A stretch of 25,187 bases of DNA, taken from a virus. Below, one piece after another: positions 2,323-14,956 of this stretch; the first letter of the stretch is position 1, and each line of letters begins with the position of its first letter. The translations under genes were made by a program, and so were the position numbers. Under the pieces are notes generated by a model. It worked only from the letters and a program-made list of their open reading frames with translations, did not search any database and was not told the DNA's origin. The DNA lies in IMG/VR virus record IMGVR_UViG_3300037635_003489, positions 1 to 25,187 of that record; one strand, written 5' to 3'.

Positions 2323-3024
2323 ATGTACGTCCAAGATAACTTCCTCACCGACCCAGACTTGATTCAAGCCATCAAAGAAGATGAGAGCTTCTTCCCTCCC
2401 CTCATGGACACCTTTGAGGACCGCAATAATATTGGGGACTCTCACGGCATGATGTACCACACCGAAGCGTCATCGTGTTTTGCGCCGTACATGTTTTGGG
2501 ACGGCTGGTGGAACTCTCCTGCCGACACTCTAAAGAAGCAAGTAATTCAGGCTATCTGGGAAAACCCTGCGATAAGAAACTTTAGTTTAGACGACGTTAT
2601 TGGATTTGAGTACTGGACAAGATCATGTGTACCCCCGCAGTACCTCGCACACCACGTCGATGAAGACACATTTCTTTACGCAAAGTATAAAAGATTCAAC
2701 GCTCCGATTGCGGGAAGTGTGTGGTACGGATTCACTGAAGCGCCTGAAGGCGGAATGTTAGAAGTTCATAAAGCCAGCATTGAGGGCTTCCCTGACAATA
2801 TCTTAGAGCAAGAATCAGTAGAAGCGTACCTGTCTCCTAAGGATGATCGAGAACGTATTGCATATGTGCCTAACAGAGTAGTATCGTTTGATGTAGGCAG
2901 GAGAATGCACGAAACTACACCGGTCCTATCAGGAATTCGTCAGGTGCTAGTTGTTAACGTGTGGCATAAGGATCGTCCACCGTTTGCGTTAGAGGCAGGG
3001 GAATTTTTCTATGAGAGTAAATGA
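2323..3024 (+). CDS. 2OG-Fe(II) oxygenase-like protein, first gene of the rightward operon
   Basis: 233 aa. Predicted double-stranded beta-helix dioxygenase using Fe(II), O2 and 2-oxoglutarate; substrate unknown. The iron triad fits H111-x-D113 (in AHHVDED) and H196 (in RRMHETTP), with R206 ten residues later as the 2OG carboxylate ligand (SGIRQVLVVNVW). N-terminal residues 1-90 are rich in Trp, Phe and Asp. It is more divergent than the prolyl-hydroxylase-type proteins downstream: the usual NDxYxGG strand is replaced by APEGGMLEV. The start is fixed by the -10 box six bases upstream. It overlaps the next gene by 14 bases. Fe(II)-dependent function is a motif-based inference. Confidence 0.75.
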   Translation: MYVQDNFLTDPDLIQAIKEDESFFPPLMDTFEDRNNIGDSHGMMYHTEASSCFAPYMFWDGWWNSPADTLKKQVIQAIWENPAIRNFSLDDVIGFEYWTRSCVPPQYLAHHVDEDTFLYAKYKRFNAPIAGSVWYGFTEAPEGGMLEVHKASIEGFPDNILEQESVEAYLSPKDDRERIAYVPNRVVSFDVGRRMHETTPVLSGIRQVLVVNVWHKDRPPFALEAGEFFYESK

Positions 3025-3823
3025 ACTTGATTACGGTGTTATCTACATTGAAGATGCGCTACCTAACGCTGCCGAGTTTATGCGTGTAATTGAAGAACAC
3101 GACACTAACGCCGATTTGTATCCAGTTATCCCAGCGTGGGAAGAATGGTACGACGGCGGTCCAGTACGCACCGAAGACGGCTGGAAACAGATTGTAGAGC
3201 ATACCCATGAAAGCCACAGAGGGCGAGCAAAGCATTTCGACTGGGACCTAAACGAAAATCAACACTGGCCCCGGAAACAAACAACTCCAGATTTTAGTAA
3301 AGCGCACAACCTAGCTGACAAGATAATCAACTTAATTGAACCAGACTACATTAAAGCTCTGGATGTTTGGGCAGGGATAACCGGCAACACGATGCCCGCC
3401 TATATTACACGCAACTACTGCTTACGAGAGTACAGAACTGGTGGCGCTATGGGCGCACACATTGACAAAAACATTGAAAATCCTATAAACACAATGGATT
3501 GGACTGCATTGCTTTACTTAAACGATGATTACGAAGGGGGCGACCTTTCCTTCCATGCCCGTTCACCGGAAGAATTAGACGCACTAGGCACGGACTACAA
3601 TAAACACGCTGATTTTTTTCTGTCCCCTAAAGCCGGAAGTATCGTGATGTTACCGTGTACCGTAACGCACGCCGTTTCAGAAATAACAGCAGGTAATAAA
3701 GCCTATCTCTTTCTGTTTATGCACACCAAGACCAACATAACCAGCGGATTAGGTGAGCCATACTATCCCATAAACGACGCTATCGAAAGGCACCAAAAAG
3801 AAATGAACCACGGCAATGTCTGA
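3011..3823 (+). CDS. Prolyl 4-hydroxylase-type 2OG-Fe(II) oxygenase (Lys variant)
   Basis: 270 aa. The C-terminal catalytic domain (about 128-240) has H150-x-D152 (GAHIDKN), the strand LLYLNDDYEGGDLSF, and H220 (VTHAVSEITAG). The residue ten after H220 that should bind the 2OG carboxylate is K230 (GNKAYLF), as in animal collagen prolyl 4-hydroxylases, rather than the Arg seen in most neighbours. The N-terminal 120 residues are specific to this protein (WEEWYDGGP, HFDWDLNENQHW) and may bind substrate. ATG at 3011 has GGGGAA upstream and lies inside the end of the previous gene; it overlaps the next by 8 bases. Substrate unknown: peptidyl proline is the default for this family, but free amino acids or other small molecules are possible. 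Confidence 0.85.
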   Translation: MRVNELDYGVIYIEDALPNAAEFMRVIEEHDTNADLYPVIPAWEEWYDGGPVRTEDGWKQIVEHTHESHRGRAKHFDWDLNENQHWPRKQTTPDFSKAHNLADKIINLIEPDYIKALDVWAGITGNTMPAYITRNYCLREYRTGGAMGAHIDKNIENPINTMDWTALLYLNDDYEGGDLSFHARSPEELDALGTDYNKHADFFLSPKAGSIVMLPCTVTHAVSEITAGNKAYLFLFMHTKTNITSGLGEPYYPINDAIERHQKEMNHGNV

Positions 3824-4658
3824 GCACTTAGGAATGGGAATCGTCAGGATTGCAGACGCAGTATCCATTGATTCAAACATCTTCCCTACCATTGAGGCCC
3901 TAAGAGCCGAAGCCTTAGCGAAACACTACACATACATTTATGACGACGCCGGTAATGTGCTACACGCCACCAACTTAAGTGGACACCGCTTCACACCAGA
4001 AGAAATTGAAGCAAACTGTGTCAGGATAAATAACTTTAATGACCTTCAACACGAGTGGGAACAAAGCTATTTTAAAACCATAGAAACAGAAGTCTACAAC
4101 GCACTGTTACAGTACGCCACAGAGTTTCCTATGATTGTTCCCTGCCTCTGGTGGAAAACAAAAGGACACGTACTTTCGTACAAGGCGGGATCGGCACTTG
4201 GACTACACGCTGACAATGACATCAACTACCAGCCCCACTACGAGCCAGACTTTCAACTAGGCGTCAAACACGTTTTGGCTGCGATTGCATACTTGAACGA
4301 CGACTATGAAGGAGGCGACATTGTTTTCCCCTACGCCAACGTGACGTACTCGCCTAAGGCCGGAGACGTACTCCTGTTTCCCGCAAACTTTGTTTGTGCT
4401 CACGAAGTCAACCCAATTACCGCAGGCAACCGCTATGCGTACTTATCATACTTTGGACAAGGTTCATCTGCCCCGGAATATGGAGTCAACATAGTAGAGG
4501 ACAGCAGTAACATTTACAGCGGTCAAGTCTGGATGCACGACTTTTTTGTAGACTACGAAGAATATGTTACAAATCATGAACTCAGTGGAGACTTACTTCT
4601 CCCTGTGCTAAGATCGTTCAACTCAAAAGGTACCCGAAAGGAACTTAGTAATGGATAA
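3816..4658 (+). CDS. Prolyl 4-hydroxylase-type 2OG-Fe(II) oxygenase, WWK-KGH subgroup
   Basis: 280 aa. Catalytic residues H131-x-D133 (GLHADND), H196 (CAHEVNPITAG) and R206, with the family strand AYLNDDYEGGDIVFP. Upstream of the triad is CLWWKTKGHVLSY (110-122) and downstream is YFGQGS plus VWMHDFFVDYEEY. These three extra motifs are shared with the leftward genes at 5214, 5981 and 7702, so the four are close paralogues. Overlaps of 8 bases with both neighbours suggest translational coupling. Most likely role is hydroxylation of a protein or small-molecule substrate; nothing in the sequence identifies it. Confidence 0.87.
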   Translation: MSEHLGMGIVRIADAVSIDSNIFPTIEALRAEALAKHYTYIYDDAGNVLHATNLSGHRFTPEEIEANCVRINNFNDLQHEWEQSYFKTIETEVYNALLQYATEFPMIVPCLWWKTKGHVLSYKAGSALGLHADNDINYQPHYEPDFQLGVKHVLAAIAYLNDDYEGGDIVFPYANVTYSPKAGDVLLFPANFVCAHEVNPITAGNRYAYLSYFGQGSSAPEYGVNIVEDSSNIYSGQVWMHDFFVDYEEYVTNHELSGDLLLPVLRSFNSKGTRKELSNG

Positions 4659-5247
4659 AAAATCACTAGTCAATATCCCCTTCTTCCAAGGACATCTTGA
4701 TGACATCGACAACGAGTTAATCTCCCATCAAATCACACAGTACGGTGAACCCTGTGGCGATGAAGAGGAGCCGTGGGACGACCAAGACATTCTGTTACCC
4801 GACACCCCGGAGATAAACGAGCTACTAACTCGCATGACTCGTCTAGTTCAGTATGGCGCAGAAAACAATGACTTAATTCTGAAGAACCAGTGGGCACTAA
4901 ACTTACAGCACGGGAAGAGTGTCGGACCTCACTCTCACCACGCCAACTTTCACATTCACCCCGAAGACTACTGGTCGGCAGTCTACTACCCTATAGCCGA
5001 TGAGAAATCTGCCAAACTCATCCTATCAGCCACTTGGTGTAACACAGTACACAGAAACACACACGTACAGCCGCAATCGGGAATGTACGTTATTTTTCCG
5101 TCCTACGTCCTACACTGGACAGAACGCCAACAGTCACCGGAGACACGTCTTGTAATTGGCGCAAACTTTGATCCCGCAGAACCAAACATGAACGCAAATG
5201 TAGACTTCTCAATCTACGAACGGCGTCCTTCTGTTGACCCCGCCTGA
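4651..5247 (+). CDS. 2OG-Fe(II) oxygenase of the Oxy_5 type (PF13759-like)
   Basis: 198 aa. Resembles the putative 2OG-Fe(II) oxygenase family common in marine bacteria and phages: NQWALNLQHG, then PHSHHANFHIHPEDYWSAVYY (broken here only for description) with candidate iron ligands H94 and H96, then PQSGMYVIFPSYVLHWTE with H155, and R166 in ETRLVIGANF. The family usually ends on this NF segment, as here. ATG at 4651 has AAAGGAAC before it and lies in the last codons of the previous gene (8-base overlap). It is the last gene of the rightward operon and its final 34 bases overlap the end of the leftward gene at 5214 on the other strand. The exact iron ligand set (HxH rather than HxD) is unconfirmed. 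Confidence 0.8.
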   Translation: MDKKSLVNIPFFQGHLDDIDNELISHQITQYGEPCGDEEEPWDDQDILLPDTPEINELLTRMTRLVQYGAENNDLILKNQWALNLQHGKSVGPHSHHANFHIHPEDYWSAVYYPIADEKSAKLILSATWCNTVHRNTHVQPQSGMYVIFPSYVLHWTERQQSPETRLVIGANFDPAEPNMNANVDFSIYERRPSVDPA

Positions 5248-5981
5248 CTGTCAGCAATCAGATTGGGCATCCAAATCCTAGCGCCTTCTTGCCCGACAAT
5301 CTCGTTGTTCGGGGTATCCACACCATAGCAGGCCATGCTTAAAAAGGCAACTCGTCTCCCTGACTCTACAGGATACACTTCATGCCTTCCGACATAACTG
5401 GAGGGGTAAATAGCGACCGACCCAGCTTCCGGCGTAAACGCATAATCTGCATGAGGGAAGTTAATTTCTCCGCCAGTATAATCCGTCCCACAGTTGTTTA
5501 GATAAAGATTAATGCTGGTACTGTTGTGCATCGAAACCTGATTAGGTGGAGATTCACCCCATTCAAACGGTACCTGATCGTCACAGTGGGGACCAATGTG
5601 CTGCCCTGCGTCGTACACCGCCACATGCCCCTTCGGTCGCCACCAAGCCGTTGTAGCCGCATCCGGGAAGATCGTGCAGTACTCTACAAGTGCCCGATAC
5701 AGTGCATCCTCACACGAGTCCACAAAGTCTAAGTACTCCTGAGGAACTTCAGTTGCACGGCTAGCCCCACGAGTTTCCAAGAAGCGCTGTGGGGCCATCC
5801 CGATATCCTCAAGGCTAAACTTGAACCCTGTCTGATTAACGGCATGATCTTTCTCAAACTTAAAAGTCTGCTCCGACTCACCCGTAAGCCAACCACAATA
5901 CTTCGCAAAAAAGTCAGGATCAACTTCCAATACGTTGCGGCAAATCACAACGCCCATACCAACATGCTCTGCTTGAATCAT
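5214..5981 (-). CDS. Prolyl 4-hydroxylase-type 2OG-Fe(II) oxygenase, WWK-KGH subgroup; end of the leftward operon
   Basis: 255 aa. H132-x-D134 (GPHCDDQ), H200 (VGRHEVYPVESG) and R210 complete the Fe/2OG site; the strand reads LYLNNCGTDYTGGEINFP. It has the subgroup motif TAWWRPKGHVAVY (111-123) and the C-terminal IWMPNLIADS. The N-terminal half carries a short VVICRNV strand typical of this group. Ribosome-binding site GGAGGGG lies in the last codons of the upstream gene, whose TAA shares an A with this ATG (TAATG). It is the last gene of the leftward operon and converges tail to tail with the rightward operon with a 34-base overlap, leaving no room for a separate terminator. Confidence 0.87.
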   Translation of the reverse strand: MIQAEHVGMGVVICRNVLEVDPDFFAKYCGWLTGESEQTFKFEKDHAVNQTGFKFSLEDIGMAPQRFLETRGASRATEVPQEYLDFVDSCEDALYRALVEYCTIFPDAATTAWWRPKGHVAVYDAGQHIGPHCDDQVPFEWGESPPNQVSMHNSTSINLYLNNCGTDYTGGEINFPHADYAFTPEAGSVAIYPSSYVGRHEVYPVESGRRVAFLSMACYGVDTPNNEIVGQEGARIWMPNLIADSQAGSTEGRRS

Positions 5982-6874
5982 TACCCCTCCGAGTTTAACA
6001 AAGTAGTTCTGTATTGCTCTGAGCGCTCGTCATAGCCACGCTCTTCTAAAAAGGCCCGGTAATCTTCACGCAACGTGGGCATCCACACATTCGTACTGGA
6101 TTCAGCCCCTTCAGGATTTACCAAAGGATCAATAACGTCTTCCCGGACAGCGGAATTAGGGGTACCCTGAGAGTACCAACCCAAATACGACATCCTACGC
6201 CCCTTCCCCACCGGGCAAACTTCGTGAGCCGCCACATAGTTAGAAGGGAAGAATATAATCGTGCCCGCCTCAGGGACAATAGGGTCGATATTTAAATAGT
6301 TGAAATTGTGGGCACCTTCTGTAAAGTTTCTAGCGTTCAACTCTGACTCAGGCACAGAAGAGTTTAGATATGTCACATTAGACACAACATTACGTAAAGC
6401 TAACTCCTGCGATGTCCGGTGAACTCCGTACACATACTCAGCACTGATATCTGAGTGTGATCCTAGATAAACACCGTCACCATAGGACACCACATGCCCC
6501 TTCACCTTCCACCAAACGCAATTGTACGCCAAAGGGTAACAAGTAAAATACTTAAGTAAACAAGCGTCTTTAGCATCTTCCAGCGCACGTAGCAAGTGTC
6601 TTACATCTTCTCGTGGGTTTAGGTGAAGAGAAGAACCACGGCGGGGCATAGACTCGTATGTGTCTAACCCAAACAGATATCCACTTTTGTTCTCGTAAGC
6701 AATCTCGCCCGTTTCAGGGTTGGTGACCTCTGTGTACATTCCGGCATACTCTTCGTCAACAAGCAGAGAAACCTCATCATAAAGTTTCTCCCACTCGCAC
6801 GAAACGGCATTGCGGAAAACAACTACACCGCCGCCTAAATCTTCTGGCTCGGGATCATTGTACGAAACAAACAT
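5981..6874 (-). CDS. Prolyl 4-hydroxylase-type 2OG-Fe(II) oxygenase, WWK-KGH subgroup
   Basis: 297 aa. H140-x-D142 (GSHSDIS), H217 (AAHEVCPVGKG) and R227; subgroup motif CVWWKVKGHVVSY (119-131) and C-terminal VWMPTLREDYRAF. It starts MFVSYNDPEPEDLGGG, and the segment EDLGGGVVVFR is almost identical to EDLGGGVMVFR in the gene at 7702, pointing to a fairly recent duplication. The strand normally reading LNDDYxGG is loosened to an insertion (LNSSVPESELNARNFTEGA), which also occurs in the 7702 protein. The gene has its own leaderless promoter (TAGACT six bases before ATG) in the nine-base gap after the upstream gene, so the last two oxygenases can be expressed separately from the rest of the operon. 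Confidence 0.86.
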   Translation of the reverse strand: MFVSYNDPEPEDLGGGVVVFRNAVSCEWEKLYDEVSLLVDEEYAGMYTEVTNPETGEIAYENKSGYLFGLDTYESMPRRGSSLHLNPREDVRHLLRALEDAKDACLLKYFTCYPLAYNCVWWKVKGHVVSYGDGVYLGSHSDISAEYVYGVHRTSQELALRNVVSNVTYLNSSVPESELNARNFTEGAHNFNYLNIDPIVPEAGTIIFFPSNYVAAHEVCPVGKGRRMSYLGWYSQGTPNSAVREDVIDPLVNPEGAESSTNVWMPTLREDYRAFLEERGYDERSEQYRTTLLNSEG

Positions 6875-6880: not shown

Positions 6881-6909
6881 AGTCTACTGAAACAGAGAAG
6901 CACTGTCAA
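6881..6909 (-). promoter_or_regulatory. Internal leaderless promoter before the oxygenase at 5981
   Basis: Minus strand TTGACA (6904-6909), 17-bp spacer, TAGACT (6881-6886), six bases (ACGTGT), ATG. The boxes lie within the last codons of the upstream gene. No ribosome-binding site is present. Confidence 0.7.
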
Positions 6910-7705
6910 TGGCTGGGTGGCTGCAAAAGTAGCCTAAAAACTTTCGCTCACTCTGCTTAAAGCCACCAGAAACAGCGTGTGACATCGTAAACAAATCGCT
7001 CACAAGCATATCCCCCACTTGCCAATTCCAAGTCAGTCTACGTTTAAGGTCCCGCATAATTTCTACTTGAATAGTATCAACATGCGCTTCAAGCTCATCT
7101 ATCTCACTAGGTGAAGGATCACGCCCGTCAAAAGAAACTAGAGACACATACCCCTGACAGACTCTAATGACTTCTGCATCTTTAAACGGGTGGCGCTCAA
7201 CTGCGTGACGTAAATTGATAGAAGCCCTATGACCCTTCCTGTCCACAATATCTTGGTCAGAAATCACACACTTCCGTAAGAACTTTACCACCTCTGCGGG
7301 CAAGTCCTCAACTAACTTAGAGTTATCTTTAAAGTATGTCGCCCCCACATCCGTCGAACAATCAAACTTAAGCATGTTCCAGAACCCTGCCACTGTAGAA
7401 TTCTCTAATGATGCCTCAACATGCTCTAAATGCCAATTCACGGAAAGATCACTGCCGGTATGCTCTCCATAGTCAAACGTGTGCGAATGATCTTCAACAT
7501 ACCGGCGAAGACAAGACCGATCAAAGTCAGCAGTCCGTGGAACCCACCCGATCTCGTCACCTAACGCCACAATAATGTTTAACTGTTCTTCTTCGGTAGC
7601 GTGTAATCCACGCAACCCAAAAACCCCATCGTGTAGAAACTTATCGGCAAAGTATGCAGAATCGTTAATTACATCGCTGTAACAGCAATCAATTACATCA
7701 ATCAT
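6884..7705 (-). CDS. TauD/clavaminate-synthase-like 2OG-Fe(II) oxygenase with HxE motif
   Basis: 273 aa. Different fold subgroup from its neighbours: residues 89-95 (VNWHLEH) match the WHxD/E motif of the TauD/TfdA superfamily, with H92 and E94 as iron ligands; the C-terminal GDMLVSDLFTMSHAVSGG gives H243, and R254 (QSERKFLGYF) would bind 2-oxoglutarate. An HxE rather than HxD pair is known in the clavaminate synthase, VioC and AsnO type enzymes, which hydroxylate free or carrier-bound amino acids, so an amino-acid-like substrate is plausible. The N-terminal FGLRGLHAT segment also suits this family. ATGA overlap with the upstream gene. H95 next to E94 leaves some doubt about the exact ligand pair. 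Confidence 0.7.
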   Translation of the reverse strand: MIDVIDCCYSDVINDSAYFADKFLHDGVFGLRGLHATEEEQLNIIVALGDEIGWVPRTADFDRSCLRRYVEDHSHTFDYGEHTGSDLSVNWHLEHVEASLENSTVAGFWNMLKFDCSTDVGATYFKDNSKLVEDLPAEVVKFLRKCVISDQDIVDRKGHRASINLRHAVERHPFKDAEVIRVCQGYVSLVSFDGRDPSPSEIDELEAHVDTIQVEIMRDLKRRLTWNWQVGDMLVSDLFTMSHAVSGGFKQSERKFLGYFCSHPAIDSASLFQ

Positions 7706-8769
7706 GGCTCAATCGGCGCACCCTCCGTACCACAGTTAGCCGCCCCGTCAAGTTCTTCGGCCTCGTGAGTATCCCCGTACTGGGCCACACACCGCCCCTG
7801 ATACACGGGATTGATCCCGATGTTCTGTTCCTCGCCCGTAGAAAAGCGAGAATAGTCAGACTTGCAGTACCGCTCATAATCATCGTAAATGTTATTCATC
7901 CACATTGCGGGACACCACTGAAAGCTGTCGTCTGGCTCTACGATATTGATGTTTCCTTCTTGGTGCGGAGAGCCTTGACCAAAGAAAGATAGATAAGTAT
8001 AACGTACCCCAGCGTCCATTCGGCTTACCTGATGGGACGCCATGTAATTCGTTGGGAAAAATACGATGTCGCCTTTCTTGGGCTTGTACTCAATACCCAG
8101 ATGAAAGAACTCTAGCATTCCGCCAGTAAAGTTTGTACCGTCTAACTCGTCTTCACTCTCAACAGAGTCGTTTAGATACACTAGGCATCCACAAGTCTGC
8201 CGTGCGGCCATCTGCCCACGAGGCATATAACGCACGCCCTCGGTTACTTTATAGTTTGTATCATTATCGCAGTGAGCGCCCAAGATACCTTCATCGGCAT
8301 AACGAAGAATGTGCCCCCGATTTTTCCACCACACGCACCCAACAAGCAGCGGGAAGTAGTCGATATAACGCAGAAGCGCTTTGTAAATCGTGTCCTCCAT
8401 GCCGTGAAAAAACTCACGTGGGACATCCGGCGTGTCTTTTGTTACAGGGTGAAGTAACCGAACGGGTGTTGCAGGAATATCTTCAGGCCGATATCTAAAA
8501 CCATCTTCGTTGATGCCATACTTTTCCCCGTCCTCACCAACAATATACTCCCACCTGTTCTGATGAGATACCTCGGACTGTGCATCAATATACTTGAATA
8601 CTTCTTCTGTATCTCCTGTAACGGCCTTTCTGAACACCATAACACCGCCGCCCAAGTCCTCTACCTCAAACTCACCAATTTCCTTGAGAGCAGCATCATC
8701 AATAACAGGTGTGTCGGGATGGGGGTCCCCACTACGCCAATCGTCGGGCTGAACATTGTCGTCGGTCAT
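7702..8769 (-). CDS. Prolyl 4-hydroxylase-type 2OG-Fe(II) oxygenase, longest WWK-KGH member
   Basis: 355 aa. H166-x-D168 (GAHCDND), H246 (ASHQVSRMDAG) and R256; subgroup motif CVWWKNRGHILRY (145-157), then FFGQGSP and MWMNNIYDDYERY. It is longer than its paralogues because of an acidic, Asp/Pro-rich N-terminal extension (1-35) and a C-terminal tail of about 50 residues rich in Glu, Gly and Cys (GRCVAQYGD, ANCGTEG), which might bind a metal or partner. An insertion between the triad halves (SVESEDELDGTNF) resembles one in the 5981 protein. The ATG is one base after the TAA of the upstream gene; only a weak purine-rich AAAGAAG precedes it. Confidence 0.87.
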   Translation of the reverse strand: MTDDNVQPDDWRSGDPHPDTPVIDDAALKEIGEFEVEDLGGGVMVFRKAVTGDTEEVFKYIDAQSEVSHQNRWEYIVGEDGEKYGINEDGFRYRPEDIPATPVRLLHPVTKDTPDVPREFFHGMEDTIYKALLRYIDYFPLLVGCVWWKNRGHILRYADEGILGAHCDNDTNYKVTEGVRYMPRGQMAARQTCGCLVYLNDSVESEDELDGTNFTGGMLEFFHLGIEYKPKKGDIVFFPTNYMASHQVSRMDAGVRYTYLSFFGQGSPHQEGNINIVEPDDSFQWCPAMWMNNIYDDYERYCKSDYSRFSTGEEQNIGINPVYQGRCVAQYGDTHEAEELDGAANCGTEGAPIEP

Positions 8770-9514: not shown

Positions 9515-9806
9515 TAACAATACTCTCCGCTAGCTGCCAGCGATGCCACAGTCGCCGCACATTCACCATCAATAACACGTTAATTTCCTTCAATGCATCG
9601 TTAGAAGCTAATGTGTGGCCCTGCTCTAAACGAATGAAAGGGAAGGTTGATTTAATACCAGCAACGATCTCATCAAACGAAGAAGACGAAATAGTTTCTG
9701 TATTCATGCCGAGAGAGTACATCACCGTAATTAACTCTCGCTCCACATGCGCCAAATCTGCTACAGCATTATAAGCCGGTGAACTTGCATTCCCAACCCT
9801 ACTCAT
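9507..9806 (-). CDS. Unknown helical protein, 99 aa
   Basis: No family recognised. The sequence starts MSRVGNASSPAYNAVADLAHVE and is predicted mostly helical, ending WHRWQLAESIVNG. It has no Cys and no membrane segment. The start ATG (9804-9806) overlaps the end of the upstream gene by 8 bases and its own end overlaps the next gene by 8 bases, so it is firmly part of the operon. Start choice is uncertain by two codons (TTG at 9812). Confidence 0.6.
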   Translation of the reverse strand: MSRVGNASSPAYNAVADLAHVERELITVMYSLGMNTETISSSSFDEIVAGIKSTFPFIRLEQGHTLASNDALKEINVLLMVNVRRLWHRWQLAESIVNG

Positions 9807-10074
9807 CGGCAAACTCGTCTAAGCTCTCAGCGGACAACGGTAAAGAAGTCCTTAACGGATCAGTGTCACCGGAGTAGAAATGACAAAGGAAGCCCTCGCC
9901 CGAAGGCACATTCCACGCAGTCGTGGACGAATCGAACTTTACAGGCTCTTCAGACACCCGAGAAGCGTCTGTCGGCTCTGGGCCTTGGTCAGACTCCCCA
10001 AAGGCGTTAATATCTACACCGTCTGCTGCGGCCTCTCGCTCCACGGAGCTATCAACGACGACATACTTCTTCAT
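9799..10074 (-). CDS. Unknown acidic small protein, 91 aa
   Basis: No family recognised. It begins MKKYVVVDSSVEREAAADG, has a long Asp/Glu/Ser/Pro-rich, probably disordered middle (about residues 20-48), then TTAWNVPSGEGFLCHFYSG, and ends acidic (ESLDEFADE). ATGA overlap with the upstream gene couples their translation. The single Cys lies in the GFLCHFY segment. Low complexity and small size leave open a structural adaptor, a regulator or a peptide substrate of the operon's enzymes; none is supported directly. Confidence 0.6.
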   Translation of the reverse strand: MKKYVVVDSSVEREAAADGVDINAFGESDQGPEPTDASRVSEEPVKFDSSTTAWNVPSGEGFLCHFYSGDTDPLRTSLPLSAESLDEFADE

Positions 10075-10289
10075 GATTCCAAGGCTTCCAAGTTGCCTAC
10101 CATCGTCAAAAGCGAACGATACGCAGGGTAATCAGTGTCATTCTCGGACACCGGAATAACATAGCTTGACGTTAGTGTGCTCGGATCAATGTTCAGCATC
10201 ATCGCCATAGACACAATGTTTTGATTTAAAAAATCCATTGCTTTTTCTTTAGCTTTTTGCCGCTGGGCATCGGAAACTGTTACAGCCAT
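10071..10289 (-). CDS. Unknown small protein, 72 aa
   Basis: No family recognised. Starts MAVTVSDAQRQKAKEKAMDF with a charged helix, followed by a hydrophobic Met-rich helix (NIVSMAMMLNIDPSTL) and a C-terminal helix ending VGNLEALES. Seven bases separate it from the upstream gene and it has an ATGA overlap with the next. Upstream purines (GTGAGAAACC) form only a weak ribosome-binding site. Confidence 0.6.
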   Translation of the reverse strand: MAVTVSDAQRQKAKEKAMDFLNQNIVSMAMMLNIDPSTLTSSYVIPVSENDTDYPAYRSLLTMVGNLEALES

Positions 10290-10296: not shown

Positions 10297-11148
10297 TCAC
10301 AATCTTCCTAAATCTTTCTCGATGTTCTTATATGATACACAATCAATGTATAGTTGCGCAAGTATCGGGCGAGGCTCTTCCATCAGATTCTTCGTTGCCG
10401 CCCAGAGCCTGAAAGACAAAGGCATGTCGGGGGTAACTTGATTCAGAGAACACTCCCCCGTTCTCACATATTGTGCCACCTGCATATCGGGAAGAGCCAT
10501 CAAATCCCGAACAATTTCGTTAGAATCCTCTTCGTCAACATGCAATTCAAAATACTCCAACACGTCACTTGCTAACTGAGCAACCGGCTCGGTGTTATCT
10601 GCGTACAGCAAAGCCCACTGCCACTCCAGTAAAAGTTTAAAGAACTCATGCAAAGAGCAGGCAGCAGTGTACGGATGAGTCATCTGTAACTTTTCAATAA
10701 TTCCTGCACCCACATCAGAGTCAACTTGCGTATAAATGATATGAGCCAGCCCTTCGTGGTGTAACAGAGTTAAATGCTTTTCAATCATTCTCAGAAAATC
10801 AGAACCCGTGTGGTCCAGAACAGTAGACTTGTAGTCTTCTCTACCATATAACTCGTCTACGGTCATAGGCATATGCGTCTCTGTAGAAGAGCACAGCGCA
10901 TTCATCCAATGATCGGGATGGTCGGTACGTGGCACCGACGCCCACAGCCTATAACCTCCTCTGAATCTAACTGGATCGCCATCATTAATGATGGGCATCA
11001 TGCCCGGAATTGTATCAATTAAATCCTGAACATCTGGATACTCGTCAGGATCAATACCCTCCAGCCGCATAGACTGTTCTAAAAATGGACGAAGCCGACT
11101 CAACTTATCTTCAAGCGCAATTTTCTGCACACTGTTTCTTAAACGCAT
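10297..11148 (-). CDS. Unknown alpha-helical protein, 283 aa
   Basis: No family recognised. Mostly helical with no signal peptide or membrane segment. Noticeable features are a central HLTLLHHEGLAHIIY segment with clustered His (about residues 125-140), which resembles but does not match a metal site, and many Trp/Met/Leu helices afterwards (LLLEWQWALLYADN). The C-terminal third has FRLWAATKNLM. The His cluster is worth noting in an operon of metal enzymes: a helical di-iron or HD-like protein would use such residues, but the spacing I see does not establish one. ATG with AAAGG upstream; a TATAAT box in the 32-base gap upstream may give it its own promoter. Confidence 0.7.
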   Translation of the reverse strand: MRLRNSVQKIALEDKLSRLRPFLEQSMRLEGIDPDEYPDVQDLIDTIPGMMPIINDGDPVRFRGGYRLWASVPRTDHPDHWMNALCSSTETHMPMTVDELYGREDYKSTVLDHTGSDFLRMIEKHLTLLHHEGLAHIIYTQVDSDVGAGIIEKLQMTHPYTAACSLHEFFKLLLEWQWALLYADNTEPVAQLASDVLEYFELHVDEEDSNEIVRDLMALPDMQVAQYVRTGECSLNQVTPDMPLSFRLWAATKNLMEEPRPILAQLYIDCVSYKNIEKDLGRL

Positions 11149-11170
11149 AAAAGTACCTTTCGCTACTACT

Positions 11171-11176: not shown

Positions 11177-11180
11177 CCGT

Positions 11181-11798
11181 TTAGTAGTCCAGTACCTCGT
11201 CAATGCACTCTCGGATTGTCCAACTTTCACCAGTAGTTAGAGGAACGTCGTCTAGCGGATCGCTCTGCCAATTGAAACGAGTAATCATCTCACCGCTCCT
11301 GCTGACAACAAACTTTTCCCAACTGTGCGGAATACGGGCGACTGCACCACCCGACTTGTTCCAGCCTAAATATGCCGCCTCTGAAGTGTCGGCAGGAGAC
11401 GCATCCTTAACACGGGTCACGTTACCCAGTAAAGCAGAGTACACTAGACTTCCGCCCTTACCGTTAACTTCAATTTTTTCAGACAGCGGAAAATTAACAA
11501 ATGGATACGTCTGCTTTACCCACTCAGAAATCTCCTCGTTTTCACCAGGCTCCATCTGCCCGAACTGATTGCAGGGGAAGCCAACAACGCTAAACCCACG
11601 ATCTTTAAACTCGTCATGAACTTTCTGTAACTGCCACAACTGGCGTGTCGTGCGTCCAAAAGACCAGAAGGTGCTGCACTGGGGAGTATACCCCAACTTT
11701 GACACAATGTTCACGACCAGCGTCACCTTACCATCAAATTGTTGCATGAAGTCTGCTTTGCCATCAATTGACTTCATCTGCACATCATAAACGCTCAT
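11181..11798 (-). CDS. Glutathione-peroxidase-fold protein lacking the catalytic tetrad
   Basis: 205 aa, slightly longer than usual family members. Clear family signatures: KVTLVVNIVSKLGYTPQ (24-40), GFPCNQFGQMEPGENEEI (73-90), and the C-terminal WEKFVVSRSGEMITRF. However the four residues that form the peroxidase tetrad all differ: the peroxidatic Cys/Sec position is L35 (SKLG, normally SKCG), the Gln of NQFGxQEP is M82, and the Trp-Asn pair of the WNF motif is H158-S159. C41 (TPQCSTFW) and C76 remain and could form an alternative redox site. There is a roughly 10-residue insertion after C41. It may be a non-catalytic relative or a diverged thiol enzyme. ATG chosen at 11798, with GGAGGG upstream and ATGA overlap with the preceding gene. 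Confidence 0.8.
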   Translation of the reverse strand: MSVYDVQMKSIDGKADFMQQFDGKVTLVVNIVSKLGYTPQCSTFWSFGRTTRQLWQLQKVHDEFKDRGFSVVGFPCNQFGQMEPGENEEISEWVKQTYPFVNFPLSEKIEVNGKGGSLVYSALLGNVTRVKDASPADTSEAAYLGWNKSGGAVARIPHSWEKFVVSRSGEMITRFNWQSDPLDDVPLTTGESWTIRECIDEVLDY

Positions 11799-12157
11799 TG
11801 GTCCCTCCATTTATATTTTTCGCTCCAAGCAGCATGTTGATCAATCCAAGGATGCGGATTGCTAGAAACTTGTCCGTCGATAGGGCACGAGAACATGATT
11901 TCGCCTGTGTCACTATCACCAATCTCAACAACCCCGGTCAACGTTTCATCACTAGGTGTACACTGTACTCTAACCAAGCAGCTAAATGGGACCTCAGTAA
12001 ATGCAGATAAAACATAAGTCTCATTCATTTTGTTGAACGAAGTAAAATCTAAACTACCCTTAAGCATGTGGGCGCTCCCACAGTTATCTTCCGTGGGTAA
12101 ATCCAACAAGAACTTCTCAATACCCAGAGGGGTGTGTACATTCATTGCGTATGCCAT
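11795..12157 (-). CDS. Unknown protein, 120 aa
   Basis: No family recognised. Starts MAYAMNVHTPLGIEKFLLDL, probably beta-rich in the middle (SCLVRVQCTPSDETLTGVVE), and ends PWIDQHAAWSEKYKWRDQ. Three or four Cys are scattered. ATG at 12157 is preceded by GGAGG and lies 16 bases inside the end of the DUF6065-like gene; the longer frame to 12268 would need a 126-base overlap and lacks support. It couples to the peroxidase-fold gene by ATGA. Confidence 0.65.
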   Translation of the reverse strand: MAYAMNVHTPLGIEKFLLDLPTEDNCGSAHMLKGSLDFTSFNKMNETYVLSAFTEVPFSCLVRVQCTPSDETLTGVVEIGDSDTGEIMFSCPIDGQVSSNPHPWIDQHAAWSEKYKWRDQ

Positions 12158-12870
12158 GATACCTCCGGCACTTCTGGTACGTCTAATTTCACGGACCCCT
12201 CGTAGCGTGGGCCAATCTGATTGCCTTGCTCGTCTAACCCTGTACGGATTCCGTTCATCCAAGTCCACGGCGCTTCCTGCATCTTCTTCATCTTGGCCTC
12301 GCTGTAGCGCATACGGCTTTCCATCAAATCGGGCTTATCCCATAAATTCTCAACATTACACTCAATAGCAGGCATAAGGTTTGTATCAAAAACGAAAAAG
12401 AATGCGAACGGCATACCCTTAGGAAACACAACCTCTTTACCTGGCTCCGTCAGTTTCCAAGCCGTTGGAACTTCATCCGGCCACCAGTCGCTAGGGATGA
12501 TTGAAGACAGCGGGACAGCGCCCTCTACAAAATAGTTAGGGGACCCAGTTACCCACGTATGATAGCCCTCGTCAGTATTGAATGCCCAACCCAACGGAAA
12601 ATCGACCATGCCTATCTTATTGCAGTCCGCAACCATACGGTTGTTGTACTCTCCGCCCGAGACAAGTGTGGGAACAGTGTCACCCCCATCCCACTTTACG
12701 ACAACATCACACGGTAACAAAATTTCCCAACCGTTCACATTTGCCATAGACAAAGGCAAGCAGCGGTAAGCGTGTTTATTGTAAGTGTCGTCCATCCAGC
12801 CACGCATAAGCCGTGACTGTTGAATCTCCGGCGAACCTTGATGGGTACGCAAAAGAGTTAGTTTGCTCAT
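12142..12870 (-). CDS. DUF6065-like protein
   Basis: 242 aa. Resembles proteins annotated as DUF6065 (function unknown): an N-terminal RCLPLSMANVNGWEILLP (about 36-53) followed by WDGG, a central GWAFNTDEGYHTWVTGSPNY, and IIPSDWWPDEVPTAWKLT with FPKGMPFAFFF. These Trp/Gly/Pro-rich beta segments are the family's hallmark as I recall it; I cannot confirm it here. In other genomes such genes are often near oxygenase or secondary-metabolism-like genes, which would suit this place, but that is recollection. ATG at 12870 has GAGGAAAC before it and shares ATGA with the upstream oxygenase stop. Confidence 0.6.
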   Translation of the reverse strand: MSKLTLLRTHQGSPEIQQSRLMRGWMDDTYNKHAYRCLPLSMANVNGWEILLPCDVVVKWDGGDTVPTLVSGGEYNNRMVADCNKIGMVDFPLGWAFNTDEGYHTWVTGSPNYFVEGAVPLSSIIPSDWWPDEVPTAWKLTEPGKEVVFPKGMPFAFFFVFDTNLMPAIECNVENLWDKPDLMESRMRYSEAKMKKMQEAPWTWMNGIRTGLDEQGNQIGPRYEGSVKLDVPEVPEVSWHTQ

Positions 12871-13736
12871 TGTTTCCTCATCTGATCTTGTGTGTAGCCC
12901 TGATTGGCTTCCCAACTAGCAACAGCGTACTTGTGAATCTCATCGTAAATAATTTTGCGTAACTGCTCTTCATCAAAGGCGGCTACCTGTGTCGGGCTAC
13001 TTTCAGGCTGTGTCTGACCGCCCTCAGGGAAGGCAGGCTGAGCAGGTTGCTCAGAAGACTGCCCGAAGTCTCGTGAGAACCCACCATGCTGATGTGAGTC
13101 ATCGTTGTAGTCAAACATTGTTACCGCAGCGTATTTGAACCCTGATGTCACCGGCAGAGATGCATGAGCGTAGATGTACGTTGAAGGGAAAAATATTGAA
13201 TCACCCGCTTCAGGCTTATACGAAATGTCCAGCAGCGGAAAGTGTAGCTCCCCACCCTCGTACCCGTCATTAAAGTACACAATGTTAGATACCGTACAAA
13301 TGTAAGAAAATCCGTGGTCAGTATGCACTGCGAAGTGCTCCCCTGGCCCGTACCGAACAAAGTTGATTGCCTCCATGTAGCGCATAGTAATGTTGTACAT
13401 GCTCTGATAGTGATTCAATCCAGACTTAATCCGGCCCGCAACATCTGTGTACACATTGTTGATCTCCGAAAATGAAGGCGGCGTATTAGGGATGTACTCC
13501 TCAGCCATCTTAAAGTCGGTACAATCCCGGTACTCAGGCATTTTTACGCCCTCACCCACTAACGACTCGTGCCACTTAAAGTAATCGTGTGAACTATCAT
13601 CGAGCGCAGCATGTAAACGGTCAGGAACGTAGTCTACTCCATCTAAACAGTTTTTGTAAACAACAATCCCCAACTGTGGATTACCAATATATTCATAGTC
13701 AAACTCGGATGCTGCGCTATAGTTACCGTAACTCAT
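12867..13736 (-). CDS. Prolyl 4-hydroxylase-type 2OG-Fe(II) oxygenase with disordered Pro/Gln tail
   Basis: 289 aa. H138-x-D140 (FAVHTDHGF), strand IVYFNDGYEGGELHFP, H191 (YAHASLPVTSG) and K201 (GFKYAAV) at the 2OG-carboxylate position, so this is a Lys-type enzyme like the 3011 protein. RYGPGEHFAVH precedes the triad as in typical prolyl hydroxylases. After the catalytic domain (to about 212) follows a His/Gln/Pro/Ser-rich, probably disordered linker (215-253) and a C-terminal helix, a layout unique among the oxygenases here and suggestive of a docking tail. It has its own leaderless promoter (TACGAT six bases before the ATG). Confidence 0.87.
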   Translation of the reverse strand: MSYGNYSAASEFDYEYIGNPQLGIVVYKNCLDGVDYVPDRLHAALDDSSHDYFKWHESLVGEGVKMPEYRDCTDFKMAEEYIPNTPPSFSEINNVYTDVAGRIKSGLNHYQSMYNITMRYMEAINFVRYGPGEHFAVHTDHGFSYICTVSNIVYFNDGYEGGELHFPLLDISYKPEAGDSIFFPSTYIYAHASLPVTSGFKYAAVTMFDYNDDSHQHGGFSRDFGQSSEQPAQPAFPEGGQTQPESSPTQVAAFDEEQLRKIIYDEIHKYAVASWEANQGYTQDQMRKQ

Positions 13737-13742
13737 GCTGTT

Positions 13743-13771
13743 ATCGTATCAGACGTATCGGGTAGAGTCAA
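13743..13771 (-). promoter_or_regulatory. Internal leaderless promoter before the oxygenase at 12867
   Basis: Minus strand TTGACT (13766-13771), 17-bp spacer, TACGAT (13743-13748), six bases (AACAGC), ATG. The -35 lies within the end of the upstream gene. No ribosome-binding site. Confidence 0.68.
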
Positions 13772-14321
13772 ATCTTTCTAGGACATGCCAAAACGTAGTG
13801 ATGTTTAATCGCTCACCAGACTGAATTTTAGCCACTTGATGCAGATACTTTTCGCTTGTTGGGAACGCAACCAGTGTCCCTGCTTTTGGAAAAATAAACA
13901 AATCTTGATTCGGCATAAAAAGATCACCACCAGTAAAATCGGTGCCGTGATCGTTAAAATACAGAAGCGTGGAAATGTCACGGGAGGGGTAGCCTCCGTA
14001 AGTTCCTAAGTTCAAGGCCGTATCTTGAAGGGTGTCAGCGTGAAGCTGTAACTCCCATCCGGGAAGCCCACTAACTAGCGAGGCTAGTTCTTCATGCCCG
14101 ACCACACATGAATAGTAGTCTTCAATAAACTCTTTAACATTTGATCTTAAGTCTCCCATCAAGGGACTCAAGACATCGCTCTCACCCATCTGAACACACT
14201 TATCGTATAAGTGGTCTTCAATATCGTGACGAGGGAGCTTGGATATTTCTTCGGTAAACAGCGCAACAGTGTCAGGAGCTAAAAAATCAGGTACAACTAC
14301 TACACCATCTCGCTCTTTCAC
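13749..14321 (-). CDS. Compact prolyl 4-hydroxylase-type 2OG-Fe(II) oxygenase
   Basis: 190 aa, close to a minimal catalytic domain. H94-x-D96 (QLHADTL), strand LLYFNDHGTDFTGGDLFMP, H161 (YLHQVAKIQSG) and R171 (ERLNITTFW). The start VVVVPDFLAPDTVALF is the usual first strand and helix of the family. GTG start at 14319-14321, with GAGGGGG upstream, overlaps the TGA of the preceding gene (GTGA). Paired with the next oxygenase upstream, whose YYNDDFTGGELYFP strand is similar, so the two may be an older duplication. Confidence 0.86.
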   Translation of the reverse strand: MKERDGVVVVPDFLAPDTVALFTEEISKLPRHDIEDHLYDKCVQMGESDVLSPLMGDLRSNVKEFIEDYYSCVVGHEELASLVSGLPGWELQLHADTLQDTALNLGTYGGYPSRDISTLLYFNDHGTDFTGGDLFMPNQDLFIFPKAGTLVAFPTSEKYLHQVAKIQSGERLNITTFWHVLERFDSTRYV

Positions 14322-14956
14322 CAGGCCCCCTCGTTATAGTTCTCCACAACAGTATAAAACGACGGCGTGGTCCAGCGTTCACCACTCGTTACCGTGCGGA
14401 CCCCATGAAGATAGTTTCGATCACCTACGAACATTACTGCCAAACCTGGCTTTGGGGTAATTTCAATATCGTGGTCAGGGAAGTACAGTTCCCCACCAGT
14501 AAAATCGTCGTTGTAATAAATTAGAGAGTTGAGGTCATACGTGGGAAAAGGATTGGGGCTTCCGCAATTTAGCTCTTTGTCAGCGTGCGGCTGTTGCTCA
14601 ATACCCTCAAACCATCGCATCAAAACAGGGTTACGTGATGACACTTTAACGTTGAAAAACTCCTGCACTTTACCGGCCATCTTTTCAATATATTTTTCAA
14701 TAGTCTGGTACACCACAGGATTCTTTCGTCCTATAATCCCACCACTGCACATACGATCATTCCAATAGGCAGCATCATAAATGCATACACCGTTCTCGTC
14801 GTACTCCGTATCTTTACCGTTGTCCCATTCATCAATCGTGGGTAAGAAAGCCTGAACCAGACTTAGATCGTCAGGGTCAATAAAATTTTCAAACACAACG
14901 ATGTTGTTAGAACTGTCACCAAAGTACCCTGAAGGGATAATTGAAACTTCTTCCAT
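14318..14956 (-). CDS. Prolyl 4-hydroxylase-type 2OG-Fe(II) oxygenase, first gene of the leftward operon
   Basis: 212 aa. H124-x-D126 (QPHADKE), strand LIYYNDDFTGGELYFP, H184 (YLHGVRTVTSG) and R194 (ERWTTPSFY). VVFENFIDPDDL at the N-terminus is the family's opening strand and helix; the middle has a Cys-containing, Trp-rich stretch. Start fixed by a leaderless promoter with the -10 box six bases upstream. It begins 38 bases after the stop of the FFPP-repeat fibre gene, in the same direction, so the fibre and the oxygenases may also be co-transcribed by read-through. Confidence 0.87.
   Translation of the reverse strand: MEEVSIIPSGYFGDSSNNIVVFENFIDPDDLSLVQAFLPTIDEWDNGKDTEYDENGVCIYDAAYWNDRMCSGGIIGRKNPVVYQTIEKYIEKMAGKVQEFFNVKVSSRNPVLMRWFEGIEQQPHADKELNCGSPNPFPTYDLNSLIYYNDDFTGGELYFPDHDIEITPKPGLAVMFVGDRNYLHGVRTVTSGERWTTPSFYTVVENYNEGAW

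Follow-up and report, generated by a model that had tools for sequence, protein, structure and literature searches.

Eleven probable 2OG-Fe(II) oxygenase genes linked to the gene for an [F/Y]FPP repeat protein in a phage

Results

Organization of the Gene Cluster

The window analyzed here is the whole 25,187-nucleotide stretch of DNA from an environmental bacterial virus (IMG/VR record IMGVR_UViG_3300037635_003489). Between positions 2323 and 14956 we counted 19 genes, including 11 for 2OG-like proteins, all of which were present where the initial annotation had placed them. The two operons converge, as that annotation had described, with the genes at 4651..5247 (+) and 5214..5981 (-) meeting in a 34-bp overlap. 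Many neighboring genes in both strings overlap or almost touch, such as 13749 and 14318 (genes are referred to by their lower coordinate), which overlap by 4 bp. Immediately upstream of the leftward operon, outside the segment 2323-14956, is a gene for a repeat protein (14995-16050), to which the initial annotation had drawn no connection. The features are listed below, with the basis of each assignment in parentheses.

2323..3024, +, putative 2OG oxygenase, motif only, H111/D113/H196/R206 (orthologue alignment, weak profile match)
3011..3823, +, putative 2OG oxygenase, PF13640, H150/D152/H220/K230 (Pfam, orthologue alignment)
3816..4658, +, putative 2OG oxygenase, PF13640, H131/D133/H196/R206 (Pfam, orthologue alignment)
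4651..5247, +, putative 2OG oxygenase, PF13759, HxH (H94/H96), distal H155 (Pfam, orthologue alignment)
5214..5981, -, putative 2OG oxygenase, PF13640, H132/D134/H200/R210 (Pfam, orthologue alignment)
5981..6874, -, putative 2OG oxygenase, PF13640, H140/D142/H217/R227 (Pfam, orthologue alignment)
6884..7705, -, putative TauD-type 2OG oxygenase, HxE (H92/E94), distal H243 (PF02668, orthologue alignment)
7702..8769, -, putative 2OG oxygenase, PF13640, H166/D168/H246/R256 (Pfam, orthologue alignment)
8771..9520, -, operon gene, relatives in 63/79 7702-type loci (linkage)
9507..9812, -, small gene, relatives in 63/79 7702-type loci (linkage, synteny)
9799..10074, -, small operon gene (ORF, linkage)
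10071..10289, -, small operon gene (ORF, linkage)
10297..11148, -, operon gene, relatives in 28/79 7702-type loci (linkage)
11181..11810, -, glutathione-peroxidase-fold protein, Leu39 at the presumed peroxidatic position (PF00255, residue check, linkage)
11795..12268, -, ORF, relatives in 67/79 7702-type loci (linkage)
12142..12870, -, DUF6065 protein, predicted dUTPase-like fold (PF19541, model, linkage)
12867..13736, -, putative 2OG oxygenase, PF13640, H138/D140/H191, K201 (Pfam, orthologue alignment)
13749..14321, -, putative 2OG oxygenase, PF13640, H94/D96/H161/R171 (Pfam, orthologue alignment)
14318..14956, -, putative 2OG oxygenase, predicted prolyl-hydroxylase fold, H124/D126/H184/R194 (PF13640, model, triad)
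14995..16050, -, candidate substrate, 351 aa, fn3-like, C-terminal [F/Y]FPP array (ORF, repeats, 2OG linkage)
15014..15292, -, [F/Y]FPP repeat array, 12-bp period, 23 copies (repeat analysis)
16062..18947, -, fibre-like protein, VTGDVTGN-type repeats (sequence, synteny)

Identity of the Oxygenases

Ten of the 11 proteins passed the Pfam cut-offs for a 2OG-oxygenase family: PF13640 for 3011, 3816, 5214, 5981, 7702, 12867, 13749, and 14318 (eight), PF13759 for 4651, and the TauD family PF02668 for 6884. The exception was 2323, which had no 2OG match in Pfam or NCBIfam and no PDB sequence match. Its match to the 14318 family profile was weak (probability 2%, P 0.025), with the HxD motif, the distal H, and SGxR aligned, and its H, D, and H were invariant in 56 sequences; by its motif alone, 2323 is a probable 2OG oxygenase. 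It was also noted that some PHROG names on matches of the 2OG proteins, for example "DNA endonuclease", look like inherited labels.

The iron triads that had been read from the single sequence (HxD, HxE, or HxH followed by H) were retained in the orthologues of all 11 genes. In alignments of 7 to 92 sequences per gene, both ligands of the first motif were invariant in 11/11 groups, and the distal H was invariant in 10 groups and present in 35/37 sequences of the 4651 group (absent in 2/37). The 2OG anchor position was occupied by Arg in 14318 and 13749, unlike the Lys that anchors the 2OG carboxylate in collagen-type prolyl 4-hydroxylases (P4H). A Lys as in the collagen-type enzymes was found in 12867 (K201; 52/58 Lys, 6 Arg), the top PDB sequence matches of which were prolyl 4-hydroxylases, and in 3011 (K230; 7/7).

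Amino acid differences between ten of the genes and their orthologues in locus L134 were far below those at synonymous sites. Since L134 contained no 3011 orthologue, its comparison for that gene probably involved a paralogue; against L132 and L135, 3011 gave pS values of 0.80-0.81 and pN values of 0.23-0.24. Judged from these substitution patterns, the oxygenase genes are under purifying selection. The 11 genes are probable oxygen-using (2OG-Fe(II)) hydroxylase genes. Furthermore, 5 to 12 PF13640 matches per record were found in 26/26 whole records hand-picked from the 79 7702-type loci, from which we conclude that the clustering of multiple oxygenase genes is more than expected by chance.

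The initial annotation had anticipated double-stranded beta-helix folds, and for 14318, the one of the 11 that was modelled (pLDDT 93), the predicted fold matched known members. The 50 PDB matches listed were all prolyl hydroxylases (Z 15.9-17.5), among them P3H1 (Z 17.5), PHD2 (17.2), chlorovirus vCPH (16.9), and P. putida P4H (16.5), so that, among the matches listed, the model places 14318 closest in fold to known prolyl hydroxylases. Sequence identities to these proteins were 13-20% in the listed alignments, and the best PDB sequence match was to P3H1 (8k0e, E 4e-12).

The Repeat Protein and the Partner Genes

The protein encoded by 14995-16050 contained 24 [F/Y]FPP tetrapeptides at its C-terminus, ending ...PPAFK-stop, and had an fn3 match below the Pfam cut-off (E 0.02). 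The units of the array varied at third codon positions and between F and Y at residue 1. In 105 ORFs, residue 2 was F in 1095/1097 units, in a search that permitted F, Y, W, H, or L only at that residue. These substitution patterns show that the FPP repeat is conserved at the protein level. The fibre gene 16062-18947 adjoined the FPP gene in many relatives.

Among the remaining genes of the leftward operon, a DUF6065-like gene had been proposed and was confirmed (PF19541, 4e-44; start at the ATG at 12870). The predicted structure of its product was dUTPase-like (best Z 11.5, 4.5 A over 122 residues; Foldseek E 5e-5), its Pfam and NCBIfam matches included no dUTPase family, and across loci the gene was linked to the repeat/2OG module. 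The name DUF6065 was absent from the literature searched, and a tblastn search of the phage collection gave no match. For the proposed peroxidase-fold gene, 11181, the fold was upheld (PF00255, 3e-27) but a peroxidase function is doubtful, as Leu replaces the peroxidatic Cys at position 39, which we take to be the peroxidatic Cys/Sec position; the family had Cys there in 53/119 aligned sequences. No Pfam, PHROG, or NCBIfam match was obtained for 10297..11148, nor for 8771-9520, and the methyltransferase-like label given to the latter is therefore unconfirmed.

Linkage of the Repeat and the Oxygenase Genes

To select loci by the repeat, we scanned at the DNA level for three [FY]FPP units, with nothing else required, which yielded at least 120 viral stretches. 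A 2OG gene was present in 88 of the 120 listed with trained HMMs and in 85 by phmmer with the 11 proteins of the window. In the fibre-repeat control, 118 stretches remained after two that were already FPP loci (L020 and L038) had been set aside, and 2OG genes were found in 3 (HMM) and 2 (phmmer), or in 4/120 and 3/120 with the two restored; in the collagen-like GPP control the numbers were 7/120 and 2/120. Relatives of the window's oxygenases were thus seen in 85/120 FPP loci listed versus 3/120 fibre-repeat and 2/120 GPP loci. Over whole records, PF13640 matched 42/50 FPP records (41 above the cut-off), leaving eight without a match, versus 8/50 fibre-control records. The FPP loci are not independent, as 96 of the 120 listed fell into one nucleotide-linked group; counted by group, a 2OG gene was present in 10/19 FPP groups versus 3/78 control groups. 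When the repeat was carried by unrelated domains, a 2OG gene was located within 3 kb in 7/12 clusters, and the clusters without one included one of 8 proteins and one of 2. The same scan of 257 Gb of cellular genomes gave 13 stretches, and 3 of the 4 with arrays of at least 6 units held these 2OG genes.

Loci were also selected by the enzymes. At least two [F/Y/H]FPP-like units were found in 72/77 14318-profile loci and in 48/48 when only loci 10 kb or longer were counted, and the strict three-unit pattern in 65/77 and 43/48, respectively; DNA shared with loci from the FPP scan was present in 13 of the 77. The loose pattern was found in 0 of the 118 and 120 control loci, L020 and L038 left out. 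The strict pattern was seen in 29/32 picked 7702-relative records versus 1/32 picked control records, and this single control record had five PF13640 matches. Because close relatives of one enzyme nearly always adjoin the repeat, the repeat is probably the target of some of the enzymes. The initial annotation had suggested that related viruses be searched for co-occurrence, and this was conserved: the genes form a linked module in relatives and are thus not independent, unlinked insertions. However, eight phage records picked from the search matches contained relatives of 12867, 7702, or 14318 and no FPP array, so enzymes of this kind have other purposes as well.

The 2OG gene nearest to the array was 12867-, 14318-, or 13749-like in 86/91 loci and was located 3' of the array in 87/91. 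The 14318 type was on the 3' side of the repeat in 71/72 loci, although 43 were on the opposite strand. Within the 2OG-holding loci, the distance to the nearest 2OG gene was only slightly shorter from the array than from a random point: this gene was less than 1 kb away in 64 loci, versus a mean of 53 and a maximum of 65 for random points in 200 draws.

Discussion

We consider it likely that the cluster is a cassette for the modification of a virion protein, with 14318, 13749, and 12867 as the enzymes that hydroxylate prolines in the repeat. The phage would make a tail-region protein (14995-16050) with a C-terminal [F/Y]FPP run, and the three enzymes, encoded directly behind the repeat gene, would hydroxylate its prolines before or during assembly, using host 2-oxoglutarate, Fe(II), and O2. 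This would yield an aromatic tip rich in hydroxyproline, which could be sticky or resistant to proteases and may serve in attachment to hosts or surfaces. The DUF6065 and GPx-fold proteins would be accessory parts, and the other eight 2OG enzymes may modify further residues of the repeat protein or of neighboring fibres. The dedicated multi-step system, rather than a single helper enzyme, that the initial annotation had proposed is thus supported in kind by the conserved linked module, in which the eight oxygenases away from the repeat may or may not act as further steps on one target. Of the targets then suggested, the evidence favors the virion protein, with the FPP repeat protein as the candidate, whereas we found no sign of a nucleotide, small-molecule, or surface-polymer target save the TauD type of 6884.

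A narrower form of this explanation, the probability of which overlaps with it, is that the FPP tail is modified by only the three enzymes encoded beside it and that the other eight belong to a second pathway, maintained next to the first and acting on other fibre residues or on a small molecule or surface sugar. Such a division is a serious possibility, a shade short of an even prospect: the FPP loci are dominated by the 14318 and 12867 types (125 and 116 genes), and the 7702, 5981, 5214, 4651, and 2323 types are rare there (5 to 13 genes each), but both halves stay linked in the 7702-type loci despite inversions and divergence, and the repeat is carried by 29 of the 32 picked 7702-relative records. 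We consider it unlikely that the enzymes are helpers acting on host metabolites, 2OG pools, or, in an AlkB/TET-like manner, on DNA or RNA, the roles usually suggested for the 2OG genes of cyanophages. The close linkage, seen in both directions, with a repeat protein encoded next to fibre genes speaks against such a role, as do the exclusively protein prolyl hydroxylase matches of 14318 among the 50 PDB matches listed and the Pfam results, in which no module gene matched a nucleotide-metabolism family above the cut-off. In favor of it, the family of the TauD-type 6884 includes small-molecule enzymes, and passages in PMC3037559 and PMC9602691 suggest effects on DNA repair and on nitrogen and energy metabolism.

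Two further explanations start from the fibre genes. The VTGDVTG-repeat fibre next door, which adjoins in many relatives, could be hydroxylated instead of the FPP repeat, but this is quite improbable given that loci selected by the fibre repeat alone are almost without 2OG genes (4/120, counting the two FPP loci); the FPP repeat, in contrast, is a predictor of such genes. Fibre-gene neighborhoods are also a usual place for cargo genes, and the 2OG genes could be mobile passengers of a tail-fibre diversity hotspot, unrelated to the repeat. The cassette adjoins fibre-like genes and, in 2OG-rich loci, 2OG genes are barely nearer to the array than to a random point; against this, other repeat-bearing loci mostly lack 2OG genes (4/120 and 7/120), the same enzyme types stay 3' of the array, and the genes are under purifying selection, which makes mere passengers very unlikely.

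The proposed pairing of enzyme and repeat can be compared with several known systems. The human collagen prolyl 3-hydroxylase P3H1 and the HIF hydroxylase PHD2 were the top listed fold matches of 14318, and P3H1 was its top PDB sequence match. PHD2 anchors 2OG by an Arg, as does 14318, but the substrate motifs of P3H1 and PHD2 are collagen and LxxLAP, whereas the candidate substrate of 14318 is [F/Y]FPP. Mimivirus encodes a repeat structural protein together with a modifying 2OG enzyme, its collagen lysyl hydroxylase/glycosyltransferase system, in one virus, like the pairing proposed here; it differs in being a giant virus with collagen Gly-X-Y repeats modified at lysine, in contrast to FPP repeats in a bacteriophage. 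The chlorovirus enzyme vCPH is, like 14318, virus-encoded and of the same fold (5c5t: Z 16.9, 3.5 A over 169 residues), but is a single enzyme of a eukaryotic algal virus, whereas the window combines many enzymes with DUF6065 and a repeat gene linked to them. Passages in PMC7019647 and PMC9301287, which cite Eriksson et al. (1999) for this PBCV-1 prolyl 4-hydroxylase, describe it as active on proline-containing peptides and mention no linked repeat gene. According to the passage in PMC7019647, hydroxyproline was not found in the virion proteins despite this activity on peptides, which by analogy would count against hydroxylation of the repeat.

Cyanophage 2OG sets (PHROG 61) comprise several PF13640/PF13759 genes per phage, as here, but, unlike the window, the eight phage records tested had no FPP array. 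The S-SCSM1 cyanophage has 24 2OG-Fe(II) oxygenase genes according to a passage in PMC9602691. In its genome, six 2OG genes are located around two annotated tail-fibre genes. High oxygenase counts per phage are thus not new, and the number of 11, although correct, is less special than the initial annotation had implied. The same source presents the cyanophage genes as metabolic, with functions not investigated, and in passages of PMC3037559, PMC9602691, and PMC12774648 the substrates in aquatic phages are guesses, such as DNA repair, nitrogen/energy metabolism, or host reprogramming. No earlier account of the pairing of enzyme and repeat was found.

Among the "auxiliary" genes of aquatic phages, those for 2OG-Fe(II) oxygenases are widespread, and the near-constant gene partner provides a directly testable enzyme-substrate pair, while DUF6065 gains a genomic context and a predicted fold. 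If the proposed modification is true, some phage particles bear enzymatically hydroxylated proline repeats, which would be unusual among bacterial viruses, and some of the "metabolic" phage genes would in fact be particle-maturation genes. More tentatively, there may be a hitherto undescribed class of phages with a hydroxyproline-rich, Phe/Tyr-rich tail adhesive, in which genetically encoded [F/Y/H]FPP arrays are matured by as many as a dozen dedicated hydroxylases, prolyl and possibly others, with DUF6065 as a partner. Plant extensins and mussel foot protein are functional likenesses for such an adhesive. If so, the combination of repeat and oxygenase would be a general principle of phage virion maturation, variants of which would include the RQPR-type repeat fibre of S-SCSM1.

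Eleven Oxygenase Genes in Two Converging Strings

A search of 50,697 named phage records gave no close DNA relative of the window, a virus record of 25,187 bases. The initial annotation described 11 2OG-Fe(II) oxygenase (2OG) genes in 2 converging operons, and both the genes and the arrangement were recovered. The 2 gene strings meet at 5214-5247, and neighboring genes overlap or lie close to each other. The features discussed here, with oxygenase genes named by their lower coordinate, are:

148-318, minus strand: adjacent tRNA-Tyr and tRNA-Ser genes
357-1022, minus strand: protein with a TAPPATQ/PPVTAPP-type proline-rich linker, with 30-bp tandem repeats at 777-860
2323, 3011, 3816, and 4651, plus strand: 4 oxygenase genes
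5214, 5981, 6884, 7702, 12867, 13749, and 14318, minus strand: 7 oxygenase genes
8771-9520, minus strand: gene without Pfam, PHROG, or NCBIfam matches
11181-11810, minus strand: GPx-fold gene
12142-12870, minus strand: DUF6065 gene
14995-16050, minus strand: FPP gene, with a C-terminal [F/Y]FPP array
16062-18947, minus strand: fibre gene with VTGDVTGN-type repeats

The assignment to the 2OG-Fe(II) oxygenase family held above the Pfam cut-off for 10 of the 11 proteins, whereas 2323 did not pass one and was tentatively assigned from an HxD...H...SGxR motif, a weak profile match, and H/D/H residues that were invariant in 56 aligned sequences. Both ligands in the first motif were invariant in all 11 orthologue groups, and the distal histidine was invariant in 10 groups and present in 35 of the 37 sequences of the 4651 group. 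In comparisons of 10 genes with their orthologues in the fetched locus L134, amino acid changes were far fewer than synonymous changes. Because L134 contains no 3011 orthologue, this gene was compared with those in L132 and L135, which gave pS values of 0.80 to 0.81 and pN values of 0.23 to 0.24.

Conservation of the Module in Related Viruses

Gene order was compared in loci of at least 17 kb with relatives of 7702, of which 35 were left once identical order strings had been dropped. The order in the closer relatives was fibre gene, FPP gene, 14318, 13749, 12867, DUF6065, GPx fold, small genes, 8771, 7702, 6884 or 3816, 5981, and 5214, with 2323 and 4651 at the terminal position of the module. 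In distant relatives, with about 40% to 60% identity in the core enzymes, the order was rearranged and partly inverted, and the genes were still together. The exception among the compared loci was L206, which had 2 weak 2OG matches and lacked the module. All 26 whole records tested contained 5 to 12 matches to PF13640. Since the module genes are kept together and occur in such numbers, they are linked in related phages and are not the independent, unlinked insertions that the initial annotation had set against its proposal of a dedicated system.

One relative of 210 kb contained matches to terminase, portal, and major head proteins within about 16 kb of the module. A gp23 profile, used to check for T4-like affinity, was silent in 31 records, as was its control. 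No relatives of 14318 were found on plasmids.

The DUF6065 gene had relatives in 62 of the 120 FPP loci listed, in 65 of the 79 7702-type loci, and in 5 of the 118 fibre-control loci (L038, left out of this control, also has one). Its product, modeled at pLDDT 90, has a predicted dUTPase-like fold (best Z 11.5); it had no match in the phage collection, and no mention of DUF6065 was found in the open-access library. The GPx-fold gene was identified in 22 of the 120 FPP loci listed, in 70 of the 79 7702-type loci, and in none of the 118 fibre-control loci. The protein in the window has a leucine at the peroxidatic cysteine position, which is occupied by C, A, L, F, Y, or T in its relatives.

The FPP Repeat Gene

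The gene at 14995-16050 is located directly upstream of the leftward operon and encodes a protein that ends in 24 [F/Y]FPP motifs. The DNA units of the array vary at third codon positions and in the choice of F or Y at residue 1, so it is the peptide rather than the DNA that is conserved. Neither this protein nor one other FPP protein had a match in the phage collection, both searches being limited by low-complexity masking.

In some FPP proteins (L043:6071-7390, L061:517-1863, L087:8069-9304, and L093:372-1652), a Hint/intein-like region comes after the array. These regions matched PF14890 or PF13403 with scores below the Pfam cut-offs, or in L061 were recognized by eye only, and a Hint or intein domain is for this reason not claimed. 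Through such a region, the array could be released as a free C-terminus.

Linkage Between Repeats and Oxygenases

Viral contigs were scanned for 3 [F/Y]FPP units without the use of the oxygenases, which yielded at least 120 stretches. Among the 120 stretches listed, 106 contained an in-frame array by an ORF criterion, and 88 contained a 2OG gene according to HMMs trained on the FPP-scan and 7702-type loci (344 genes in 1,068 kb). The control consisted of 120 stretches with fibre repeats, reduced to 118 by leaving out L020 (no 2OG genes) and L038 (3 2OG genes), which were already FPP loci. Among these, the 2OG genes identified by HMM numbered 5 in 1,013 kb and were confined to 3 loci, or to 4 of 120 with L020 and L038 restored. 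As the trained HMMs might favor FPP loci, the loci were counted again by plain phmmer and by Pfam. The phmmer counts were 85 of the 120 FPP stretches listed versus 2 of 118 control loci (3 of 120 with L020 and L038 restored), and a second control of collagen-like repeats gave 2 of 120 by phmmer and 7 of 120 by HMM. Matches to PF13640 were found in 42 of 50 whole FPP records versus 8 of 50 control records, the record lengths being unmatched.

The association was also seen in the reverse direction. A profile of the 14318 family retrieved 77 newly fetched loci, 13 of which share DNA with FPP-scan loci. A loose pattern of 2 repeat units was present in 72 of the 77, including all 48 of at least 10 kb, and in 33 of 35 nucleotide clusters; the strict 3-unit pattern was present in 65 of the 77 and in 43 of the 48. 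The loose pattern was absent from all 118 fibre-repeat and 120 collagen-like control loci, with the FPP loci L020 and L038 left out. Records carrying a relative of 7702 had the repeat in 29 of 32 cases, the other 3 being 23 to 34 kb long; among 32 control records, it was present in 1, which had 5 matches to PF13640.

In 257 Gb of cellular genomes, the repeat was almost absent (13 stretches). Arrays of at least 6 units occurred in L327, L331, L336, and L337, of which L331 and L336 were from one bin; genes similar to 14318 or 12867 were present in 3 of the 4, and the L336 array is at the end of its stretch. L327, L331, and L336 also contain relatives of the fibre genes in the window and so may be phage contigs. 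L327, from a Verrucomicrobiales MAG, contains 2 FPP ORFs, 14318- and 12867-like genes, and 3 consecutive TauD-type (6884-like) genes.

Geometry and Independence of the Association

Among 91 loci (88 viral and 3 cellular-bin contigs), 86 had a 12867-, 14318-, or 13749-type gene as the 2OG gene nearest to the array, and in 87 the nearest 2OG gene was located 3' of the array. The 14318-type enzyme was 3' of the array in 71 of 72 cases, at a median distance of 400 bp, and was encoded on the opposite strand in 43. A single enzyme was located beside the array in the fetched stretches L015, L019, L061, L079, and L108, and the whole records can hold more enzymes (7 matches to PF13640 for L015 and 6 for L019).

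The FPP loci are not independent, with 96 of the 120 listed belonging to a single nucleotide-linked group. By nucleotide group, 2OG genes were present in 10 of 19 FPP groups versus 3 of 78 control groups (Fisher P = 2e-6, control side without L020 and L038). Counted by unrelated carrier domain, a 2OG gene was located within 3 kb in 7 of 12 clusters; this was the case for 50 of 63 and 17 of 26 members in the 2 large clusters and for 5 of 8 singletons. No 2OG gene was found within 3 kb in the L014-type (0 of 8) or L018-type (0 of 2) clusters, the nearest in L018 being about 4.5 kb from the array. The genes in between (L018:4919-6905) include those for an Asp/Asn beta-hydroxylase, a sulfotransferase, and a methyltransferase-like protein, which suggests additional modification steps. 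Within 2OG-bearing loci, the array was barely nearer to a 2OG gene than a random point: the distance was less than 1 kb in 64 loci, and 200 draws of random points averaged 53 such loci and reached at most 65.

Related enzymes also occur in 8 phage records that had no FPP array; 5 of these records are described as complete Synechococcus phage genomes. In phage S-SCSM1 (MK867354.2), a gene annotated as "short tail fiber" (L541:2081-3346) carries a repetitive RQPR/FR-rich insert of 235 residues, and the L541 stretch has 3 annotated 2OG genes upstream and 3 downstream of this gene. The insert is possibly a second type of repeat substrate.

Fold and Candidate Substrate of the Enzymes

The initial annotation had called for structure prediction, which for 14318 gave a model (pLDDT 93) that matched known prolyl hydroxylase folds. 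The best 50 structure matches listed were prolyl hydroxylases only, including P3H1 (Z 17.5; 2.6 A over 171 residues), PHD2 (17.2), vCPH of PBCV-1 (16.9), and the P. putida P4H (16.5). Searches of PDB sequences with the 14318 profile likewise identified P3H1 (E = 4e-12) along with bacterial and chlorovirus P4Hs, and the 12867 profile identified P4Hs (E = 9e-6). A nucleic acid enzyme of the AlkB/TET type is not favored for 14318, with P3H, P4H, and PHD entries ranked on top and a Tet-like entry appearing only at E = 0.04. We kept a small-molecule pathway as a rival explanation because 6884 is of the TauD type; its best PDB match was marginal (E = 0.085), and 7702 had no PDB sequence match.

The dedicated modification system proposed in the initial annotation was right in kind, and the candidate target is now the FPP tail of the protein encoded at 14995-16050. 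We infer that 14318 acts catalytically on FPP. The 3 repeat-adjacent enzymes (14318, 13749, and 12867) probably hydroxylate the tail; that all 11 do so is rather unlikely, and less likely than for the adjacent 3.

Published reports give 1 to 5 2OG genes in cultured T4-like cyanophages and 24 in S-SCSM1 (PMC9602691, PMC3037559), and describe the functions of such genes in viruses as not specifically investigated (PMC9602691). They also mention a likeness of phage 2OG proteins to human EGLN3 detected with Phold (PMC12774648). According to a Baltic study of AMGs, which also refers to collagen in viral tail fibers, it "remains cryptic" how viruses use prolyl 4-hydroxylase (PMC9301287). The chlorovirus P4H is described as hydroxylating proline peptides, with hydroxyproline undetected in virions (PMC7019647). 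Among the titles and abstract openings listed in searches of the open-access library, none reported FPP repeats or their pairing with 2OG enzymes. Virus-encoded protein hydroxylation is already known, and the module in the window would be a case of it with an unusually clear candidate substrate.
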